From Spirogloea muscicola (Eukaryota > Streptophyta > Zygnematophyceae > Spirogloeales > Spirogloeaceae), in NCBI GenBank assembly GCA_009602725.1, contig WELB01000077.1, forward strand, positions 537,046-601,045: a stretch of DNA of 64,000 nucleotides. Direction: 5' to 3'. This document shows, piece by piece, positions 33,516-47,213 of the stretch; the first letter of the stretch is position 1; the number at the start of each line of letters is the position of its first letter. Under the pieces are notes generated by a model. That model was not told the DNA's origin. It worked only from the letters and a program-made list of their open reading frames with translations, and ran no database searches. A program made the position numbers and the translations under genes.

Positions 33516-34951
33516 TAGCACGTGCCAAGTATTGATCAGTCAATTTGTTGGATATGAATATTAGAGACCAGCAATTGCGGCTGGGGAATCATTCTGTCAA
33601 TTGCGGTAGTATCATGAACCAATGCAAAGGCTGGGTAACCATCTCACTCAGCGCAGTGGGCCGTGGTCGCGCTCCTAGTGACTGAGGGGTGCCAAGTTAC
33701 TTCGAGCATCTTGCTGAATCTGAGGTCCTCGCTGCTGCTCCTGTGCACCCTAGCTATAGCTGCCACCCACCTTGGATGCGTGCAGTGCCATGCAAGTCTG
33801 ATCTCTGTGTGCTGCCAGGCGGAGCCTGTGCTAGTTGATCTTTCTCTCTTTCTCGCCATATCGATATCAAATTGTACTCCGGAGACGGGCGCTTTGCTTT
33901 GAAGAGGGGCAAACGCCCAGCTGAGGATTCAGATTGGAAAAGTTGGGGAGCAGTGAGTCTTAGATGCAGCCAAGAGGTGCGGCACCAACAATGAAGAGAT
34001 CTGGACCTCAACACTCCAAGCTTGTGACTCTGCTTTTAGACAGAGTTGCAACCCTCGGAAGTCGTAGTTCATGGCTTGCTTTTCCAGTTCTTCACGTTGT
34101 TGTGGTATAATCACAACTCGATTGGAAGAGCCCTTAGCCTTCCACCAGTAATGCTTTCGTCAGGCCAGCATGAATTGCCGTGTCATCAGGGCTTGCATCT
34201 TGGGCAGGTTGTGCCATGTTAAACCCAGATTGCCAAAATATATTGGCTTGGCACCTTGGTAGCTGGACGATGCAGTGCATTGTGTTGCAGTGCACTGCAA
34301 TACAAAGCATGCATTGCTTTGACACCAAAAGTGGGGTAAACATATGACTAATCAGGAGCTCATGGGCACGCATCTTTAGCAACACTGTCACACTTCGCCA
34401 CAAGGCGCAGCTTCAAAAACTGAAGAAACTGTATCACTATTGTCGATCCACTCAAAAGTAGCGTATATACCTACAAGCCAGGAGCTACTTCGAGCTCTGG
34501 AGGAACCAAAATGTCAATGTAGAATATCTAAGATCTGTTGGAAAGGTTTGCTGTAAGGGTACAAGGGAGTGCTGCTCTGTGAAATGCTCCACTCTTGCTA
34601 TAAGGCCGCACTCTCTAATCGAAGGGCCTCTTCTAAGCCCCGCACACACTCTTCCATGGATGGTCGCAAGCTTGATGGTTCCTGGATGAGCAAAGCAATT
34701 TTGCATCGGTATTTTTGTTCTGGAAGTTCATCATAGAGGATACTAAATAGTAGTGGTACAGACTAAGTGGACTAATTGATAGTCAAATCTGCACGCCTTA
34801 ATGGCACCCACAATTGGCACCATGCTTACCAAAGCTCCATGCAGGCAGACACTATGATATGGGAAGCTACATAATTGTAGACACTGAAGAGAGTCTAGTG
34901 CCTGGTGCCAAGTCCAAATGATGCATCCCAGCGAGAAGGAGCAGGATTTAC

Positions 34952-37900
34952 TTGCAAGCACGCATTGGCAACTTCCGCGACCTTCGCCATTGAGGCAGTG
35001 GCGTAGGCGCCCTTGAGCTTGGGGTCCACGATTGCCTCAAAATTTCCGCTGACCATGTGTGGCTTTGCCCACTCCACAAGATTGACCTGGTGACATATTT
35101 AACAAGGTTCAATCGATTAAGTGGAGGGCTACAATGACTCAAAATCTACAACGAGCACCTACACAGAATTTGCAGGAGCCAAGATGCAGCACGTGCTGTG
35201 AGGACTGCTGTGATGCAGGAGCAATATCCAATTTTCACCTGCAATGTGTCCATGGACAGTGTTAAATCGATGACTTTTCTCCCAGCGATGGTCTCTAGCA
35301 ACACAACTCCAAAGCTATACACGTCACTCTTGTCTGTGAGCTTGAGCCACTTGTAATATTCAGGGTCAACATAACCAAAGCTGCCCCTCACAGCCGTTGA
35401 CACATGGGTCTCGTCCTTCTGCGGCCCAAGGTGTGAGAGGCCAAAATCCCCCACTTTGGCCGAGAAATCTGTGTCCAGAAGGATGTTGGTAGACTTCACA
35501 TCCCTGTGATGTACAGCAGCACATTTGTGATCAACAAACAAGCTATTGCAAGCAATCAGACTTTACAGCACCAAGTATGAAGAGCCTGGTGTGCATTACA
35601 TCTTTTGAGCACCTGTGGATAATTGGAGGGGCCAAGCCACGGTGCAAGTAGTCAACGCCCTTAGCAGCACCGATGCAGATCTCGAGGCGCTTCTTCCAGC
35701 CCAGGGGCACGTCTGGCGTGGGGGTGTCTCCCACCAGGTGCTCTCTCAGCGTGCCCCGCGACATGAACTCATACCTGATGAAGAGCGTCTACCGGTGGTT
35801 AGTCTTTGGGTTCAGAACATGCGAGCCCATCTAAAATGAACCTCAGACAAGCACAGCTGTTACAAACATACTTGCAAAAGGGGCGAAAATGTGCACCATA
35901 CGTCAAACAAGAGGAGGAGACCCAGCGAACATCAGATGGCAAGGTCTTTCTAATACTGAGCTGGGGTTGTGCATGTGAAGCGCTTACACAAGGATCATCT
36001 CCCCGCGCTCGCGACAGTAGCCAATGAGGGACACGAGGTGCCGGTGTCGGACTCTGGACAGCACTTCAAGCTCCATGTAAAACTGGACGCTGCCCTGCCC
36101 GCTCCCTTGTATGTGCCTCTTGACTGCGACCACGTGACCTGTTGGCAAGGTACCACTGTATCCATCCAGGGACAGCGTCATATGATGATGGTGAAAGTAC
36201 TGTGGAAAATTACTGCATCCTCTCTAAAGACCTCAAATCTTATACGCCAGCCAACTATCTGCAGGCATGAGTTTGGCTGCCACTTTGCATAGCTAGCAAG
36301 ATCAACTATGAAGGCAAAACTAGGAATATGGATATGGAAACAGGAGTGGCCTTGTACCGGTAGACGTTGCCAAAGCCACCGGAACCGATGATACAGGAAT
36401 TGGCAAAGTCCTTCGTGGCCCTTCTCATCTCGCCCAGTGTGAAGTCCTTGCCAGCCATGATGCCCAGACTCTGAGTGTTAAGGCTGCTGGTGCTTCTTGT
36501 GCGGCTCATCCGTCCTACTAACAACTGCGACCTTTCCATCCTCCTGATGAGCACATCCAGCTGTTATTTAGTAGCAACACATCATGCACTCTATGCATCC
36601 CCTCACACAAAACAAGCCCAGATACATAGCCGAGCATCAAAGGTGTACTTGGACTAATTAGGTGCATACAAGTCCTCCTGTGTCTGCTGCATGGCAAACA
36701 GCGATGAAAAGCAGGCTTCTCAAACGACATTGTCGTATTGTAGTGTCCAAAAGGGTTTGCAAAACATGATGCATCATGCACTGCAGCAACGCCTCTAAAG
36801 CAAAGGCACACAAGAGTAAGCTTCACACCTTTTGCGCCTATAGCAGTGACAGCAGATTATAGATGTTGCCACAAGACAGGCGGCACCCAAGGTCCCTAAA
36901 ACAGCCGCCACAATACCAGCAATAGTTCCCACATTGCCACCCTTGCCATTGTTACCCTCTTGACAAGTAGGTAAGCCTGTCTGAACCAGCACATGAACAT
37001 CTGATGGAATGCACAACTTGGCATTGCCAGGCAGAAAGCGAGCGATTGAGAAATTATCGCCACTGTTAGCTAAGGATGGCAGATTCAGCAAGCCCAGGGG
37101 CAGGGGACCTGCGTGGGACGTAAACTTAGAAGTTAGTGAGAAAACTGCAACATGCCCAGAAGGATCCTTTCCTTTAGTCTGCAACTAGAGGAGATATTGA
37201 CAGATGAAGCACCATTCAAAAACTGCAAGCACCACTTCAAAATGCAGGAGAAATCGACATGCAGCCAAGTGGAATGCTTGATCAAAGCAGGCCAATAACA
37301 GACCAGAAAAGTCGTTGGAATCTAGAGTCAGCTCCTGGAGGGAAGTCAACTGGCCAAAGGCTGCTGGTATTGAGCCTTTCAGAGTATTGTTATGCAGCCT
37401 GAGAGTCGTAAGACTTTTCAGTTGGCCAATAGTGGATGCCAATGTTCCAGTCAGCTCATTATCATTGAGCCAGACGTCCCGGAGATGTTGGAGATTAGCC
37501 AGCTGACTAGGGAGCGCCCCAGAGAGCCCAAAGTGCTGCATGCTCAGGAATGTATGTTAGTGGGGTCTTCAGCTGGTATGTATATGAGGTGAATGTGACT
37601 GCTTCCCTGCATTGACCTAGATTATGAGCTTAACAAGGTGCAATGCTCTCTTGTAACCCCTCCATCCAGCATGTCAGAAAGGCATAACAAACGCTGATCA
37701 AGCCCAGCAACAGCAGAGGTGAAGTGCATACCGGCAATATGATGGACGTGACTACAGTGCCACTGCAACCAACACCTGCATGTTCACAATGAAAGCATAT
37801 CACGAGCTTGGCAGATTGCAGTTGTCATGTGCAAGTAAGAATCTCATGAATAAGGCCCACAAACATACACTGCAGTATTTTTGTGTCGATGTATGACATC

Positions 37901-40900
37901 CATGGTGCCATGCTTACCTGCCCACGGGTTCTTGTCGCAGGGCATCGTGTTGGCACCCCAGGAGTTGAGGCTCTTGGGATTGCCCAATAGATACTTGATG
38001 GCCAGTAGAGTCTGCGCTTCTCTGGACCAGACGCTGGAGAGATTTGCAGGGCTTGGGGCACTGGCTGTCACTGAAGGAGGTACGGGTGCCCTCATCATGG
38101 GTGATTGTGGTTTCTCAGGTGGCCCACTAGCCTGCAGCTTTGCGCTGATGACCCTTACCTGAAACAGCAGTGAGCACGACTTATATGACAAGCTTGACCA
38201 GCTGAGATGCACTTAAGAGCAGTTACCAGCTACAATTGGGCTTTATATTACCTCCAGCAAACATCATGGAATTTGCTACCGACCACAGACATTGGAAGGA
38301 AGATTTGTCATGCTACTTGATTGTGTAGTCAATATACGACTTGTGCAGAGTGAAATACACCCCAGGATGACAATGTATTGTGCGATACATCCTACTACGG
38401 TATGCAAACCGACGTACACTTGTCTCACAAGTGTGACCACTATTTGCACTGTATACAATATACCTTAAAGATCTCCACCCCGCAGATTGTTGGGCCCATT
38501 GACAACCCAGACTGAAGGGACGGTGCAAGATCAATCTCAAGCAGAGACTGCCACAAAGTCACAAAGGTCATCATGTGAGTATAGAGGTATCTGCATTTAA
38601 GACCGAATTCAGTACAGACTGACCTGATCTGGAAGCTATATCTCAGTGCAGGAATCAAGCTAGCTCGAATAACATGAAGGCATGATGACCAGACTTACGC
38701 TGCGGGAGGAGCTTGCAAAGTAATCCTTGTATATTGCTGAAAAAGTTCCACCAGCACTCTTTTGAGGACTGAAATTGATGAGCACTGGGCTGTAATTGAT
38801 AAGGCAGTCAAAACTTTGATCCCCTACGGGAGAAGGAGTAGAATTGCTTGTTCCATCTTCTGAACTAATGTCATCAAAGTGCATCCTGACCAAGTACTGC
38901 CGCCGACAACCGTCATAACAATAGCTCAGCACAATGTACCAGCGAAAGCAAAGGCAACAACATGCAAGAATGTCATCATGCTCCTGAATGTCACGACTCT
39001 TAAATGGGTGAAGAAATAGTCGTGCTTGTTCGTTATTGACTAGAATGATAGCAGACATTCTAGGCCCTGTGCGGGCTGGCAGAAACAGCATGCACGGAGG
39101 CCATTGTCATTATCTAGGTCAAAAGGGAGATATGATTATAACCTGAAAACCCGGGTCCACGTGCAGAGCATACGATAGCTGAAAATTAGAGAGTGCAATT
39201 GCTGCTCGTTGTGACTGGTAGACAACTTGTGGAAGCAATGCAGGTCCAATGCCAGTCCCGTTGATGTCATTGCTTGTGGAAAAGATAGTCGAGCCCAGAC
39301 TGCAAGACAAGACCCAGGTATCGCCTTACAATAGCCCCTAAAGAAGACTCTTCAAGGTTATGTGAACAACAACTGTAAAGTCAGCCATTGCTGGGCACAG
39401 AGTGGCCGGTATGCATATGAATGCATGTTTGGAAACATTGAGGAGTACTATTGGGGAGTTATGTTGGCTTCCTATATCCTCACTTGGCCCATCCGTAGTC
39501 CTTTGCCCATGTACGCCCCACAGAATCAAGATCTGGGGTCACCACGTTTCCACCACAATTGATCCTATGAAGTGTTTCCAGCAGCATTTGTGGAGTGACC
39601 TTGTTGCCATATAGGCTTCCATTGAAGATCTTGGCTGGAATGTCACCATGAGGATGTTTGCCTGCACCCTTTACTGCTCCTGTATCCAACACTGTCGCAA
39701 CATTGATGAGCTCAATGCCAGACACAAATGAGCTTCTTGTGGTAGGCTGGAAGTCAACAAGAATGTACGGCGTTCCAAGTCTTGGAAGGAGGAACTCTCG
39801 GACCTCTGCGCAGCAGAGCAAGACATTGATGAGACTTCACCAATTCTTGCCAGCAATTTGACTCCAAAAATGTAAGGTCATGATCATTGACCGTGCAGGT
39901 GAGAGTACAGAGATTTCCAGCTTACCTGAACGACCAACATCTTGCAATCTGGTGATAACATTCATGGACGGAAAAAGAGAAATCCCGCCTGCAACAACTG
40001 CAAAAGTTGCTGAGCGGACATCAAATGCTGGGGCCTGGTAAAGTAGGAAAGCAAAGTGGAGTCTCAGAAGATATTGCCCCTTCGAGTCTGTGGTCAAATT
40101 ATAAGAGCCTGCAGAGAGGCTTTCGTTCGTGGCATCCGTTGGCCTCAGGCTAAAGGCACGAGCAGTTGCATATAGTTGAGGATCTGCGATACACACAACA
40201 CAAGCACACACACACCCTGAGCCTTCGAGAATGTACTCAGCACATTGAAGATGACTGTGTAAGTAAGTTATGTGGAAGGCCTAAAGGTTTGCATGGCATA
40301 ACTGGGTAGTCGCCTTCACCGACCTTCAGTACTCAACTTTATGACCCCTTATGACATGTCGCAACACGATGCTACCCACCCAAAAGAGCACATGCTGTAA
40401 AAGTGCTCCACACTGAACCTACTAAGTTGCCTACTAAGTTGCCTGTTTGGCAATGAGTTGGCGAATCTGCATAAGGCACAGTAACACTATGGACTTTGGA
40501 CTTGATTGCCTGATGCTGGTCACTTTATTAGGACAAAAGACATGCAGGCTGCGTCTACGACGACAAGACCGCGCCCACGTCATAACACTAGCATTGCAGA
40601 GCACATGGCATCCTTCGTGAAGCCTGCCCCTCAAGAGAAAGTTGTATAGCGGCCTCAAACACTATTCAGTCTTTCACCTGCCCTCCCTCTGACAGGAAGA
40701 ATCAGTATGAAGCTGCTTATGAGGACAAGGCAGTAACCTGCTGAGCCCTGCAGGTCGTTTGTGAGGGTTGCGATGTCAATGGCCGTGGCTACAGCACGGA
40801 CTCCACCCGTGTAGTTGGAGTCCGCAGTCCACTGCCGTCCGAAGATGTCGGTGAAGGCCGCCCCCCCGCAGTTGATGAGGTAGACATCAGTGGGCCGGGC

Positions 40901-40990
40901 GGCGGCCGACCCGGCCGTAGCTAAGGAGACGAGAAGGGCCAGCCAAGCCAGGGCAGCGTAGGGGCCGGCCTTCGCCGCCGGCCCTGCCAT
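34952..40990 (-). CDS. Malectin-like / LRR receptor-like protein kinase (MLD-LRR-RLK)
   Basis: Plasma-membrane Ser/Thr receptor kinase. Fifteen minus-strand exons keep phase: 40990-40738, 40183-39926, 39805-39484, 39299-39143, 38896-38699, 38547-38464, 38158-37918, 37775-37732, 37535-37304, 37108-36829, 36543-36358, 36155-35988, 35774-35613, 35503-35239 and 35086-34952, about 995 residues. Order: signal peptide 1-31; two malectin-like lobes (about 35-240, LINCGG; 248-424, [22 protein letters not shown]); a GDPC-like hinge [18 protein letters not shown]; LRRs about 520-610; TM about 657-686; kinase from about 725 with [42 protein letters not shown] and [12 protein letters not shown], so catalytically complete. 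Architecture resembles LRR-I/SYMRK-type kinases. The last alpha-helical part (the usual RPxM segment) is not found: after 34952 a GTAAAT donor leads toward the duplication edge at 34740; reading through ends at 34895. Confidence 0.92.
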
Positions 40991-41746
40991 TGGGAGGGGA
41001 GGCCGGCCGCGCCGCGGGCGGCCGGCGCCTCAGTGCCGAAGGCGGCCGCGGGAGGGCGCAGACATCCCGGCGCGCCCGCTCGCGTGTGGGCGCCNNNNNN
41101 NNNNNNNNNNNNNNNNNNNNNNNNNNNNNNNNNNNNNNNNNNNNNNNNNNNNNNNNNNNNNNNNNNNNNNNNNNNNNNNNNNNNNNNNNNNNNNNNNNNN
41201 NNNNNNNNNNNNNNNNNNNNNNNNNNNNNNNNNNNNNNNNNNNNNNNNNNNNNNNNNNNNNNNNNNNNNNNNNNNNNNNNNNNNNNNNNNNNNNNNNNNN
41301 NNNNNNNNNNNNNNNNNNNNNNNNNNNNNNNNNNNNNNNNNNNNNNNNNNNNNNNNNNNNNNNNNNNNNNNNNNNNNNNNNNNNNNNNNNNNNNNNNNNN
41401 NNNNNNNNNNNNNNNNNNNNNNNNNNNNNNNNNNNNNNNNNNNNNNNNNNNNNNNNNNNNNNNNNNNNNNNNNNNNNNNNNNNNNNNNNNNNNNNNNNNN
41501 NNNNNNNNNNNNNNNNNNNNNNNNNNNNNNNNNNNNNNNNNNNNNNNNNNNNNNNNNCCCCCCCCTTCGCTACCCCCGCCCCCCGCCATTCCTGCGCCCC
41601 TGTCCCCGCCTCACGCCTCGTCTGAGCGCGCGAGCTTGGCGTAGAAAACGAGGTGCAGCGCTGCAGCTTTCGGGCCTGGCAGCTGCCACGCACCGTCGAT
41701 CGCGGAGAGACCGCTGGCCGCAGGCAGGCGCCGCGGGGCTGCCGCG
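40991..41746. promoter_or_regulatory. Shared divergent promoter region of the two receptor kinases
   Basis: The two start codons (40990 minus, 41747 plus) are 756 bases apart with no other gene between. The region is very GC-rich and contains the 463-base gap, so promoter motifs cannot be read. The bidirectional role is inferred from layout only. Confidence 0.4.
41095..41557. other. Assembly gap (463 N)
   Basis: Run of N in the GC-rich interval between the divergent receptor genes. Confidence 0.99.
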
Positions 41747-44700
41747 ATGGCGCCCCGGGGCCGGCCGCCGCTCCGGGCCTGGCTCGCAGTGCTAGCGGCG
41801 GCGGGCGCCGCGGCGGCCGTGGCCGCTGCGCCGTCCTCGGAGCCGCTCGCGGCCTTCATGGCGGAGTTCCCCGGCCAATCGGACGTGTTCGGGACGTGGA
41901 GCGGCCAGGACCCCTGCGACGGCACCTGGCGGGGCGTCGCCTGCACCGACGGCGCCATCACTCACTTGTAACGCACCCTTGCGTCTCGACTCACTGGGCT
42001 TAGCTCTCTAGTCATTGATCACACGAGGCCTCCTTGGGGGTGGTCTGTGACGGTCTCACCGTTCGGCGCTCTCCATTGACGAGATGGCCTTCCGGCAAGT
42101 GCGTGCTCAGGGATCTCAGCGGGCTGGGCCTCAAGGGCAAGCTCACCAAGGAGCTGGGGAACCTGGCGGACCTGCAGCAGCTGTATCTCTACAACAACGC
42201 GCTCTACGGCCACATACCCCCGGAGCTCGGCCAGCTCGACTCGCTCCAGATCTTGTGAGGACCCCTGGCACCTCCCTGCATTGACACCGCTCCGCGCGGA
42301 CAAGCCATGTGCTTGTTGACGACGGAGGTCCTGAAGGATAGCTTGTTGTTGTGATGGAGTTTCCCAGGTGGCTTTTCAACAACGAGCTCAGTGGAAAGCT
42401 ACCAAGCGAGCTGGGCAATCTCAAGTCCTGCTTGCAGATGTGAGCCCAGCCTTGCCTGACTGCTCATCAGTCCCCATCCGCCCCGTGATTGGAAGTTTGA
42501 GATTGCTTAGTACCATACTATTTCACGAATACAACATGCCGTATGTTGCACAAAGATCACGTCCAGGCTGCTAAATTGTGAGAGGCAACGAGCCAGCCCT
42601 CTCATGGCCAATTTTACTCAAGGCTACTGTGGTCTCCCAAGCTCGTGATGACTTGATGGGCCTTGTTGCTCGTGCATGCAGGCACCTCTACAACAACAGC
42701 TTCACGGGGAGTGTGCCAGCCAGCTTCAGCAACATACCAGACTTGAGGTTACTAATACCACTGATTGCTGTGTTCCCTTATTGCGATTGATGCTCGGACT
42801 ACAGCTAGCCTAGCCTTGGCGCTGGTGCAATGCCAAGAATGTGGCCTTCATCATTGGTAGTGGAAGGCAGGACGGAATGACCTTCTCATGGGGCTCCTGT
42901 TCATATTCCAGGATCACACCTGGGAACGATCTGTGCGCACTTACTCCCGGAGAACCGTGCCCAGACAACGCGACTCCACCCTCTTCAGAGGCTCCACTGT
43001 CTGAACCTCCGCCTGCCTCTAAGACCACACCTCCGCAGCCTCCACCACCCTCCAAGGCGCCGCCTCCGCAGCATCCGCCAACGGCGCCGACTCCCTCTCC
43101 TCCCTCCATCCCCAGAAGCCCTCCTCCTGGGAACCCTCCTCCTGGAAGCCCGCCTCCTTCCAGTGTGCCGCCAGCAGAGCCTCCCTCCTTGCCTGGGGCC
43201 CTGCCACCTGCAAGCGCAAGTCCGCCGGCTGCTACTGGGACTCCGACACCCCTAGCTCCAGCTTCAGCACCCATGCTCTACCCAAACCCCAGCAGCTCTC
43301 CACCATCCTCACCTCCGCCCTCCATTGTCATGTTACAACCAGCTCCTGCTCCACAGCAGCAGCCTCCACAAGCCCCGCCTGGAGCCTACCCTCCCAACAG
43401 CCAGGTCATGCGGGGCGCGCCCATCGGCGCGCCCACTACAAGTCAGGCCGCTCCTTCTCCCGCGTATCCGCCATCTGTGCCCATGCCCGCCAGCCCGCTG
43501 CTGCCTCCCGTCCTTCCTCCCTCTGCACTCCCTCCCTACACTCAAAGTCCTCCGCCTCCGCTTGCAGCATCTCCTCAGCCTACACCTCAGCCCCCTCCTC
43601 ACGCAACCATCACTCCTCCGCCCCTTGCAGCACCCCCGCTGTCTCCGCTAGCCTGCAGGCCCTGTCCGCAAAACCAGGTCCAAAGCCCATTCAATACGTC
43701 TAGCTGCCTGTGCGTCTTCCCCCTGGTGCTCGTGCTGCGCTTTGTCGACCTGAAGTACGCCAGCTACAATTGGACCATGGAGGGCCGTTTGCTCCAAGAG
43801 CTGGCTGGCCAGCTGGGCCTGGAGGAGCGACAGCTCCAGGTGGTCAAGCGGCAGGCTGGAAGTGTCATCCTCACCATCAATGTCCTCCCGCTCAAGGTCA
43901 GGCTTATCCTTAAGCATCCTGTGCACTGCATGGATTGTGCAAGCCAATCCTTGACGGTAGCAGCTGAATGTGTCCTGCATGTACTTGCTGCAACTCAGAG
44001 GTAAATTGGATTCTGCAGGGCATGTCACTAGACAATAAGGCTGTGAAGGACATCACAGAAAAGATCCAATCACATCGCCTCACTTTGTCCTCAGAGTACC
44101 AGAATTACACAGTCACAGGTCAGACACTGTCCCCAGTATAGGTTCATCCTGGCAGCTTTCACCAAGACAATTGTGATGGAGGTTGAGTTTGAGTGGAGAT
44201 CTGATTCGAGTACCACAACCAAGGCATTCTGGCAATTAACTCTGAACCTCCAGTCAGTTAAATAGTAGCTCGCAGGAGCAAGCAGAAGAGGATGAGGAGC
44301 TGGTTTACATGAGCAACTGATGGTACAGAAGCAAGGCTCAGTTGTCCCAAGGTGCACAAGGGTTTTGTGGGCATTGACCAATGAGTCACTTATTTACTGT
44401 TCCTGCACAGCAATCACGCCGCCTCAGACAGGAGGAGGCAAGAAGCATAGTAGCTCAAACGCCGGAGTAGTGGCCGGAGCAGTCTGCGGGGGACTTGCGA
44501 TGGTCGTGGGGCTGGCCCTGTTCTACTGGTTCTACTGGCGCAGGCGCCAGGGGACGTCCAGGGCGGCTCCATCCATCAGCCCTGACTACCCACGGCCCAC
44601 CGCCCACACTCGCAAGGCTGGTGCGCAGTCACTTACTCTATGCTTGCAAGCTCTAGCTTGCCGCTACATCAGAGCACTTTCTTGCTCTTTGTATGCTCTG

Positions 44701-47213
44701 CAAGAGTTGCATATTCGACTGTTATGGCTTTGGTCATCACGGCAATGAGACAGTTATTGTCCCTGCTAACCGACAGCCCTACCGTGCTTCCCTGGATGGC
44801 AGGCTGGGCAAAGGCGGCAACGGAGGACGTCGCAAGCGACTTGGGGACTCCAGCCAAGATGCTGCCCTCACCAAGCCAGATGCTGGTGTCGGACTCCGCC
44901 TTCAAGGACCTGGAGGAGGGTCGCCAGGCACCCTCTGCCTCTCCTTTGAGGGCCGTTGCAAAGCGCATAACCTTTGCCGAGGAGGACATCACTATCCCCC
45001 CACCACTGCCCTCTCGGCTCCCACCCACCATCTTGGAGCCCACCATCCCCGAGGGGACCATGCACCCAGCGGTGTTCACCCTGGCCGACCTGCACCGGGC
45101 CACGGACGGCTTCGCCAACTCCAATGTTGTGTCGGAGAGCAGCTTCGGCCGCAGCTTTGAGGTGACTGGCTAGCATATTCAAGCAGTGAAAATCTTGCTG
45201 CAGTGCCTTGCACTATCAGCAGCTTTTCCTGCTTGTGGCTTCTCATGGACCTGTTTTGTATCAGATTGTCACAGCCGGGACTCGTCTTTCGATGTTGAAG
45301 GCAGCTGATAATACCTTCGGCTGTGCTTGAACAGGCTCATCTTCTCATGGGGGACAATGCCGTTGTGGTTGTTCTCCATGCTGGCGAGTCCCTGGACAGA
45401 GCTGCCATGCTCCGGCGCGCAGCGGCCATGCAGCAGCTTAACAGCCCCTACCTCGTGCCGCTTATCGGCTGCTGCAGTGAGGGACCGGAGCGCATGCTCG
45501 TGTATGCGCAGGTGGCCAATGGCTCCCTTCAGGACCATCTCCATGGTGAGTCACTGCATGCATTGCTCAAGCAGTGCTGAGTAGCCATGAAGAGCTGCGC
45601 AGCTCAGGCCAAGCTTTGTGTGATGCTAGCCTCTGTAGATCTCTTCTCGTTACCTTGTGTACAGGCCAGCACCACTATGGCCTGGCCTTTCTGTTGGCAC
45701 ACATGATTCTGGATGTATCAATCCTTTGCATCATCTTTGCCTCCAGGGGACCTACGCTTTGGAAGGGCCCTGACCTGGCAGAGGCGTGTTCGCGTGGCGG
45801 CGGATGTCGCTGAGGGCCTGGCTTACCTCCATGACAAGGCTGGCATGCTGCATGGTGACATCAGCTCGTCCAGCATTAAGCTGGACTCGACCTTCCGGGC
45901 CAAGGTCCGCCTTGCTTCGCCAACACAAACAAACAGAGCCCGTTGGCATCATCTACAGTAGGTCAAGACAGCTAGTAATGGGTGGTACTGTGGTGCTTGA
46001 GCAGATTGCGGAGTATGGAATCGCAGCGCTGCTTGAGGGCACGTCGGTGCTCGCGGTCCAACCTGGACAAACTCCAGCAGGCGGCCCGGTGCCATACCAG
46101 GCCCCCGAGCAGCGCAGTGGCGGCCTGCAGGACCTTGCAGGGGATGTGTTCGGCGTTGGTGTGGTCCTGCTCGAGCTGCTCACAGGCCGCAAGCCCCTTG
46201 ATCCTATGAGGCCAAAAGGCCAACAATCGCTCCTCACCTGGGTGAGCGCGACCAGGATTGTGCCATTTGTAAACATAATTGGAATTGTAACTGTAGCTGT
46301 CTTTGTAGTTGTAATTGCAACTGGAACGGTAACCTCACTTCCGAGTATAACATTTCTCGTCTGCTTTTTCTGTAAGCTGACCGCCGCACACTGTCTCGCT
46401 GTCTGGGCCACTTGCATGCGCAGTTCCTCCCGCAGCTGGAGTACAAGAAGCAGCTCATGGCCATGGTGGACCCCTACCTGCGGCTCAACAGCACAATGTC
46501 CGCTGAGTCGGTCCAAGCGTTTGCCAGAATCGCCAGCAAATGCCTCCAGCACGACCCCGAGGACCGCCCCCGCATGTCGCAGGTCGCCGAGCTACTCGTT
46601 GCGGCTATCCCACCCGCATTGGAGACCGACACTGACTCACTGGACACTGCTGGCCTCCTGGTGAGAAGTGTCTCATGCTCCTATGCAGTTGTCCTTTTTG
46701 TTCAATGGATGTAGTCAATAATTGTCCAATGGATAGACAGTATACGGTGTCTGCTAAGAAAGATGTGAAGTCTTGGAGAAGTCGTTAAGCAGTGCAATCA
46801 GCAGCCAAGCTTCCACACGATGATTGCAGGTCGGGCAGCAAAGCCGGGTGTCAGGAGTTCGAGACTATGCAAGCAGCAGTGAGGACGACGGCGGCAGCGT
46901 GACAGGCAGCGTGAATGCGGGTTACTCCGAGGAGGTGGACCGTGCAGAGGTCACGCGCAGCTTGAGTTTCGCCGGCAGGGTGAGCTTCGGAAGGATGCAC
47001 TTATGCCAGCTCTGCATTGTGAGGCGGCATGACTGCACCCGCCTACGGTGCCACTGACGACTTGAAGCATTCTGTTTGTTGACTCAGACTGGCGCCGGAG
47101 GAGGCTCAGGAAGGCTCGTGGATACGGATTTGACACGGTCGCGATCGCCGGTCTCGCGCTCCCTCAGCGCGCTGCCCAGCAAACCGCCACTGCACCCACC
47201 TCGGAAGCCGTGA
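41747..47213 (+). CDS. LRR receptor-like pseudokinase with proline-rich ectodomain (STRUBBELIG/LRR-V-like)
   Basis: Fourteen exons keep phase: 41747-41967, 42111-42254, 42368-42439, 42682-42747, 42912-43896, 44019-44118, 44411-44620, 44803-45161, 45335-45545, 45747-45904, 46005-46241, 46424-46660, 46830-46979 and 47088-47213 (TGA), about 1091 residues. Order: signal peptide 1-28; cap WSGQDPCDGTWRGVACTDG; about four LRRs (LYLYNNALYGHIPPELG, LFNNELSGKLPSELG, LYNNSFTGSVPASF); a Pro/Ser/Ala-rich extensin-like stretch about 185-410; a Cys-containing domain (SSCLCVFPLVLVLRFVDLKY) recalling ALE2/LRR-VIII ectodomains; TM about 547-570; kinase-like domain from about 695 (FTLADLHRATDGFANSNVV). Catalytic residues are lost: glycine loop SESSFG, no Lys in the beta-3 VVVVLH, HGDISSSS for HRDxKxxN, EYG for DFG. 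WFLPQLEYKKQLMAMVDP matches STRUBBELIG-type C-lobes, a family of atypical kinases. Probably signals as a scaffold or co-receptor. Confidence 0.88.

Follow-up and report, generated by a model that had tools for sequence, protein, structure and literature searches.

A probable kinase-dead receptor of Spirogloea muscicola that joins LRRs, a Pro-rich stretch and an HPCA1-like Cys domain

Receptors of the STRUBBELIG (LRR-V/SRF) family combine an N-terminal cap with the CxWxGVxC pattern of the SUB domain (PMC3095605), six LRRs and a Pro-rich part ahead of the transmembrane (TM) helix, and the region from the last LRR to the TM helix is short, at 67 residues in SRF2 and with insertions reaching 44 residues in SUB (PMC1855328). 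Kinase activity is reported to be dispensable in SUB, which stays functional with the beta-3 Lys or the alphaC Glu mutated (K525E, E539A) (PMC3095605). HPCA1/CARD1 (LRR-VIII-1), which is activated as a kinase, follows its LRRs with a Cys pair and then with a juxtamembrane module whose four cysteines (421/424/434/436) are reportedly oxidised by H2O2 (PMC9644032, PMC12040379), and this four-cysteine extracellular domain has been termed unique (PMC12040379). ALE2 and the extensin-type receptor kinases carry an ALE2_N domain ahead of the TM helix, whilst BIR2 (reported in PMC10868138), CRN and DRIK1 are receptor pseudokinases, LRR-bearing or other, that have lost ATP-binding residues. Here we describe an algal gene with likenesses to each of these, found in a 64,000-nucleotide stretch of the S. 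muscicola genome (the window); a literature search, mostly outside subscription papers, found no account of its layout in algae.

The candidate gene (41747-47213, forward strand) has 14 exons encoding 1091 residues, with GT..AG boundaries at 13/13 introns, and its product runs from a signal-peptide-like start through an LRR cap, four LRRs, a Pro-rich stretch, a Cys domain and a TM helix to a kinase-like domain (Table 1). Using the whole protein, Pfam returned LRR_1 at 32.0 bits (cut-off 20.6) and PK_Tyr_Ser-Thr at 104.9 bits, whilst LRRNT_2 stayed under threshold (19.2 vs 20.7 bits) and the TM region gave a weak TM_ErbB1 match (16.8 bits vs a cut-off of 27.1). Rfam and tRNA scans of the whole window gave no matches. 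The N-cap (PCDGTWRGVAC, residues 56-66) is of the SUB-domain CxWxGVxC kind with one extra residue between C and W; the assignment to that domain, 59-60 residues long, is by motif.

Table 1. Features of the candidate gene and of the adjoining gene (positions within the window).
Feature	Position	Strand	Basis or remark
Signal-peptide-like hydrophobic start, residues 1-28	41747..41830	+	Judged by eye
LRR N-cap WSGQDPCDGTWRGVAC (C57, C66), residues 51-66	41897..41944	+	LRRNT_2 sub-threshold; motif
Four LRRs, residues 74-168, exons 2 to 4, phase-2 introns	41966..42912	+	Pfam, gene model
Post-LRR cysteine pair PGNDLCALTPGEPC (C176, C184)	42919..42960	+	Position, eye
Pro-rich stretch, residues 187-414	42967..43650	+	Composition
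Cys domain (ALE2_N / HPCA1-like), residues 415-530; C416-x-x-C419, C433-x-C435	43651..44412	+	Pfam, alignment, profile comparison
Transmembrane helix, residues 547-572, then RRR	44461..44538	+	By eye
Kinase-like domain, residues 709-978, ATP-binding and catalytic residues lost	45129..46594	+	Pfam, alignment
C-terminal tail, Ser/Arg-rich end, stop codon	46595..47213	+	Gene model
LRR receptor kinase, Malectin-like N-terminus, intact kinase motifs	34743..40990 (approximate; start codon 40990)	-	Head-to-head with candidate

A sequence-only reading of the window had placed LRRs, a Pro-rich region of over 200 residues and a Cys domain in a single gene, which the 14-exon model, the Pfam matches and an intact second copy bear out. 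The Pro-rich stretch measures 228 residues, and since it is 40% Pro with four SPPP runs and a single SPPPP, 'Pro-rich' describes it exactly whilst the 'extensin-like' of that reading is loose. Such a region between LRRs and TM helix is an SRF feature, far longer here than in the Arabidopsis SRFs (about 380 residues from the last LRR to the TM helix), and the candidate further departs from the SRF plan in having four LRRs and an added Cys domain. Compared with HPCA1 it has fewer LRRs, and the Pro-rich stretch separates its post-LRR Cys pair from the module. The ectodomains and families of BIR2, CRN and DRIK1 are different again.

Alignment of the kinase-like domain shows that the beta-3 Lys is replaced by V731, the catalytic-loop Lys by S829, the loop Asn by S832 and DFG by E845-Y-G, in agreement with the pseudokinase assignment made from the letters, and that the alphaC Glu, which had been overlooked, is replaced by R747, so that neither site of the Lys/Glu salt bridge is left. 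The claim that the glycine loop is lacking was slightly too strong because, although two of its three glycines are lost, the third is retained (S710-E-S-S-F-G-R-S-F). HRD has become HGD with the catalytic Asp (D827) in place, and the APE motif and alphaF Asp are also kept. SUB tolerates mutation of the Lys or the Glu, whereas the candidate has lost both naturally along with other motifs, and this loss also separates it from the competent kinase of HPCA1 and from the intact kinases of the ALE2 clade. On these residues the fold is predicted to be unable to act as an ordinary kinase; weak nucleotide binding may persist, since the catalytic Asp, APE and one glycine of the loop are retained and the Glu in place of the DFG Asp might bind metal.

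Contig C55 bears a second copy, likewise encoding 1091 residues, that keeps the frame and the splice sites of 13/13 introns and shows identical motif losses, so that ATP-binding and catalytic residues are missing from both copies. The two differ by 17 indels across 2191 intron bases but by 0 across 3276 exon bases (Fisher p 1.9e-7), and Ka/Ks, 0.21 overall, is 0.19 within residues 701-985, where there are 10 synonymous and 6 nonsynonymous differences (Fisher p 0.0013). At the C40 position expected for a third copy 6731/7401 bases are N, and loss and gap are indistinguishable there for that reason. The gene model was built from six-frame data only, which would favour an artefact in which separate genes were fused by the model or the assembly, or a decaying pseudogene. 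Against this stand the C55 copy, which repeats the 13 introns, lacks exon indels and has a low Ka/Ks, and two further lineages of the genome with the same domain order. As the second copy keeps splice sites and frame and shows the same losses, the assembly error that had been named as a possible refutation is excluded, an artefact of either kind is very improbable, and the comparison of the copies argues strongly for a real, constrained kinase-dead receptor.

The Cys domain had been likened to those of ALE2 and LRR-VIII receptors, and both likenesses were recovered. Within the whole protein ALE2_N (residues 428-532) scored 27.3 bits, barely above its cut-off of 27.0, and the C55 Cys domain in isolation scored 33.6 bits. 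A profile of six algal sequences matched the HPCA1 Cys domain with hhalign at 92.6% (score 42.6), a score reached by 0/400 shuffled controls, the best of which were 25.0 (200 full shuffles) and 30.7 (200 with Cys and Pro fixed). The first, four-row profile gave only 31.7% against HPCA1 directly. PDB searches with that profile (which did not recover HPCA1) or with the Cys domain alone gave no relevant match, and no Pfam family was detected in the HPCA1 fragment. Every row of the seven-row alignment has Cys opposite the four HPCA1 cysteines, whilst in the six-row alignment the first pair's second Cys is out of register in some rows; that pair is spaced as CxxxC in the ALE2-like and SRF-like sequences and as CxC in the extensin-like one. 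Beyond the N-cap pair and C143 the only ectodomain cysteines are C176, C184, C416, C419, C433 and C435, of which C176 and C184 sit, by position and eye only, where HPCA1 has C395 and C405. By alignment and profile comparison the candidate thus has the four-cysteine module, and its Cys domain is, as judged from sequence similarity, homologous to that of HPCA1. An AlphaFold2 model of the 82-residue single-exon part of the domain (single sequence) was set aside at a mean pLDDT of 49.7.

Homology to an H2O2-responsive module makes redox sensing by the receptor plausible, although the cysteines are conserved in receptors not known to act in redox sensing, among them the ALE2-like and extensin-like ones. 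There is about an even chance that all four simply form structural disulphides of an ALE2-type fold, unrelated to redox sensing. The reported oxidation of the HPCA1 cysteines speaks against so plain a role, as does the remark that a structural cysteine can double as a switch (PMC12040379), and a redox switch in the candidate is a tentative reading that we hold to be rather unlikely.

The HPCA1-type module, recognised by the profile and the four cysteines, occurs in five receptor lineages of this one alga, one of them SRF-like. The layout of LRRs, Pro-rich stretch and Cys domain, which had been proposed as an algal design, recurs in two of them, a more clearly SRF-like gene and the C5/C4/C138 lineage, and their kinases are likewise atypical, so that LRRs with the module are paired with a degenerate kinase in 3/3 such lineages. 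The two ALE2_N lineages (ALE2-like and extensin-like) are without LRRs in the parts read and have intact kinase motifs; the extensin-like one also has a long Pro-rich stretch.

The sequence-only reading had the kinase domain following STRUBBELIG-type kinases overall, which BLAST and the trees did not establish. The best BLAST score was indeed to a hand-entered reference sequence of SRF7 (186 bits, next 165), but the genome's own SRF-like kinase scored only 135 bits, with ten other distinct references ahead of it. None of four kinase trees (14, 18, 16 and 12 rows, the long or partial C82, C122 and C63 being omitted from the last two and C82 also from the 18-row tree) gave the candidate a supported place, and AU tests rejected 0/10 groupings at 0.05. 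For the 16-row tree p was 0.318 with the hand-entered SRF7 and SUB (not joined to the candidate in the best tree), 0.41 with SRF and C5, 0.285 with CARK1, 0.17 with PERK, 0.168 with the hand-entered HPCA1 and SYMRK, 0.153 with the RLCK-VII-like kinases and 0.117 with ALE2; for the 12-row tree it was 0.14 with ALE2, 0.134 with SRF-like and C5 and 0.068 with the own SRF-like kinase, again not joined in the best tree and costing 5.2 log units. The best trees instead join the candidate to the C5 lineage, at 72/84 and 85/82, both under the support bar.

Two ancestries can be weighed on this evidence. A separate algal class of LRR, Pro-rich and Cys receptors with decaying kinases, in which the candidate is sister to C5/C4/C138 and no SRF, falls a little short of even chances: besides the trees, the two share HGD for HRD, YQAPEQ at the APE region, RQAGSVIL in the Cys domain, loss of the DFG Asp (SFG in 3/3 C5/C4/C138 copies) and an intron directly before the DFG equivalent. 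That intron position is, however, also found in the unrelated kinase L028, C5 retains the beta-3 Lys and the loop Lys and Asn, and, both branches being long, attraction between them is possible. Descent as a diverged STRUBBELIG member, an algal SRF paralogue with kinase decay beyond that of SUB, is less likely again. The SUB-type N-cap, LRRs, Pro-rich region, TM helix and atypical kinase fit the SRF definition as given in PMC1855328, the own SRF-like gene shares the layout, Cys domain included, and the top BLAST score and the surviving clade with the two hand-entered SRFs point the same way, whilst the LRR count, the low score and AU p value against the own SRF-like kinase and the pairing with C5 point away.

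Whichever its ancestry, we favour, with somewhat better than even confidence, a constrained kinase-dead receptor acting through active partners, and signalling through partners is by itself rated just as probable. As a single-pass membrane receptor, it would perceive something outside the cell through its LRRs and Cys domain, which the Pro-rich stretch would hold apart as a long spacer located in or close to the wall, and the kinase fold would scaffold active membrane kinases or switch them allosterically, as proposed for STRUBBELIG. The divergently transcribed LRR kinase adjoining the gene is a candidate for such an active partner, a possible one judged from its position alone. The most specific mechanism on offer, given the homology of the Cys domain with the H2O2-responsive module, would be redox gating of complex formation through the HPCA1-type cysteines.

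More tentative still, and in our view improbable, is that the gene represents a receptor chassis, used by the algal relatives of land plants, that preceded or linked SRF, HPCA1 and ALE2, comprising LRRs, a wall-like Pro-rich spacer, an HPCA1-type redox Cys module, a TM helix and a kinase-dead domain, in which the redox module was coupled to a pseudokinase gating active partners and was later lost by the land-plant SRFs. Quite apart from that reading, if the occurrence of the module in five receptor lineages holds, cell-surface sensing of H2O2 or quinones may be more ancient and more widespread than a single Arabidopsis receptor would suggest, and STRUBBELIG-type receptors may once have borne a redox module. 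The pairing of LRRs and module with degenerate kinases would then provide a testable rule for the origin of pseudokinase receptors.

The candidate gene on contig C77 (genome search over 471 contigs, 153.1 Mb) comprises 14 exons and 13 introns, all GT..AG, and this 14-exon reading encodes 1091 residues, the same length as the model of the sequence-only reading. A Pfam search, which that reading had proposed, placed three families above their cut-offs, the kinase at 104.9 bits, LRR_1 with a single match and the Cys-domain family ALE2_N (27.3 bits, cut-off 27.0), and left LRRNT_2 below its own. Directly after the LRRs stands a cysteine pair, C176 and C184, in a place matching C395/C405 of HPCA1, the LRR-VIII-1 receptor with H2O2-responsive cysteines. 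Between this pair and the Cys module the candidate carries a proline-rich stretch of 228 residues, agreeing with the more than 200 residues proposed earlier, whereas HPCA1 has ~15 residues there.

Coordinates of the features discussed
Feature	Location	Strand	Description
Candidate receptor pseudokinase gene	window 41747-47213	+	LRRs, Pro-rich stretch, Cys domain, TM, kinase-like domain
LRR receptor kinase, head-to-head neighbour	window 34743-40990	-	LRRs, intact kinase motifs, weak Malectin match at N-terminus
N run between the two genes	window 41095-41557		
SRF-like gene (L061, L062)	C292:94600-104200		SUB-type cap, LRRs, Pro-rich part, Cys domain, TM, kinase

A second copy of the candidate lies on contig C55, with a whole-gene agreement of 93.5%. 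In an exon-by-exon alignment it keeps the splice sites of 13/13 introns and encodes 1091 residues, with no indels in 3276 exon bases versus 17 in 2191 intron bases and a Ka/Ks of 0.21 across the whole gene, which rules out the assembly error that had been named as a possible source of the lost motifs. Loci of this genome occur in twos and threes, as expected from the genome triplication reported for Spirogloea muscicola (PMC7994812), for which 142 receptor kinases have been listed (PMC10868138).

Kinase motif positions were read from the kinase alignment, and all the changes are common to both copies. The beta-3 Lys is replaced by Val731, the alphaC Glu by Arg747 and the catalytic-loop Lys and Asn by Ser829 and Ser832, HRD reads HGD with its Asp kept and DFG reads EYG, so that the losses of the beta-3 Lys, the HRD-loop Lys and Asn and the DFG Asp described previously all hold. 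The glycine loop, described as lacking, has two of its three glycines replaced by Ser, the third not being among those changed. Ka/Ks between the copies is nevertheless only 0.19 over residues 701-985 (10 synonymous and 6 nonsynonymous differences), and the kinase-like domain is therefore constrained despite its lost motifs. SUB (STRUBBELIG) remains functional with either the beta-3 Lys or the alphaC Glu mutated (PMC3095605), whilst the candidate naturally lacks both.

The kinase had also been said to follow the STRUBBELIG (SRF, LRR-V) type, a placement that the trees neither supported nor rejected. In the tree of tool-derived rows only, the candidate joined the C5 lineage at 85/82, short of full support. 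Grouping it with the SRF-like gene of this genome cost 5.2 log units (p 0.068); with references not taken from a database, an SRF clade gave p 0.318. Since the candidate kinase branch measures ~1.7 changes per column, its position is unsure anywhere in the tree. Under the SRF definition in PMC1855328 the candidate has the SUB-type cap and the Pro-rich region but four LRRs versus six, and on account of this count and the lack of placement in the trees we do not class it with the SRFs. That source also gives 67 residues from the last LRR to the TM in Arabidopsis SRF2, and insertions of up to 44 in SUB, a region too short for a Pro-rich part plus a Cys domain of ~115 residues.

The C5 lineage (L045 on C5, L047 on C4, L048 on C138) runs from an LRR cap and LRRs through a Pro-rich part and a CPAC..CQC Cys domain to the TM and a kinase that reads HGDLKSRN and SFG (HGD and SFG in 3/3 copies). 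In the C138 copy one loop glycine is missing as well (SEEGSAVY). The SRF-like gene on C292 has the SUB-type cap DPCSGSWVGVTC and the kinase motifs HRNFKSHN and SDCGLA; SUB likewise carries HRN and DCG. The kinase of the C292 gene matched SRF7, one of the references not taken from a database, best (352 bits; next plant family 254). Contigs C62 and C439 match SRF7 similarly, at 63-70% over two parts of the C-lobe and 44-46% over one part of the N-lobe. The C292 gene carries a Cys domain, apparently unlike the published SRF ectodomains of Arabidopsis. Loop, Lys, HRD and DFG are intact in the ALE2-like lineage (3/3 copies; C8, C39, C42) and in the extensin-like C20 lineage (1/3 copies read). The sequence covered in these two lineages, which for the C20 gene stopped short of its 5' end, contained no LRR. 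Kinases are thus degenerate in 3/3 LRR-bearing lineages and intact in 2/2 without LRRs in the stretches read, which, across as few as five lineages, is a pattern to test rather than a law. Another kinase-like gene, L023 on C82, has three copies (also C57 and C291) and strongly altered motifs (HQKLKPSS, DFG absent).

The Cys domain had been likened to ALE2/LRR-VIII receptors, and both the ALE2_N match and a profile match to HPCA1 agree. ALE2_N scored 33.6 bits with the C55 domain alone, 39.1 with the C8 gene and 36.9 with the C20 gene; the C5 lineage (17.1) and the C292 gene (21.4) fell below cut-off. A six-row algal profile matched the HPCA1 stretch at 92.6% (score 42.6, 110 columns), against maxima of 25.0 in 200 full shuffles and 30.7 in 200 that kept Cys and Pro in place. 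The relationship is a remote one that needed this wider profile, since the first four-row profile reached only 31.7%, HPCA1 was not among its PDB returns and no Pfam family matched in the HPCA1 stretch. All four cysteines are invariant in a seven-row alignment; the second is out of register in some rows of the six-row alignment because the spacing of the first pair differs (CxxC in the candidate, C5 and HPCA1, CxxxC in C8 and C292, CxC in C20).

In the HPCA1 ectodomain structure (PDB 21az), C421, C424, C434 and C436 lie just before and within the first strand of the module, and C395/C405 are needed for quinone perception, according to PMC12040379. The Cys module of the candidate may be pictured as a redox gate, the main rival being that its four cysteines form plain disulphides of the fold, with no redox gating. 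The Pro-rich stretch could serve as a spacer facing the wall, and the protein would signal via partners as a kinase-dead receptor. Each element of the layout is already known; a literature search reaching few subscription papers found no description of the combination with all motifs lost, nor of the layout recurring in three lineages, one of them SRF-like.

One possible partner, judging from position, is the neighbouring LRR kinase, whose Malectin match, at 15.7 and 17.2 bits in two of its exons, missed the cut-off of 23. Its start codon (40990) faces that of the candidate (41747) across ~0.75 kb, and the two genes possibly have a common promoter. N runs of like length occupy the same spot between the head-to-head genes, 463 bases here and 479 in the C55 counterpart. 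A string search at C55 did not find the neighbour's exact protein start; its first-exon DNA adjoins the candidate copy there too (88.2%), and recurs on C40 (85.8%), where the candidate's place reads N.
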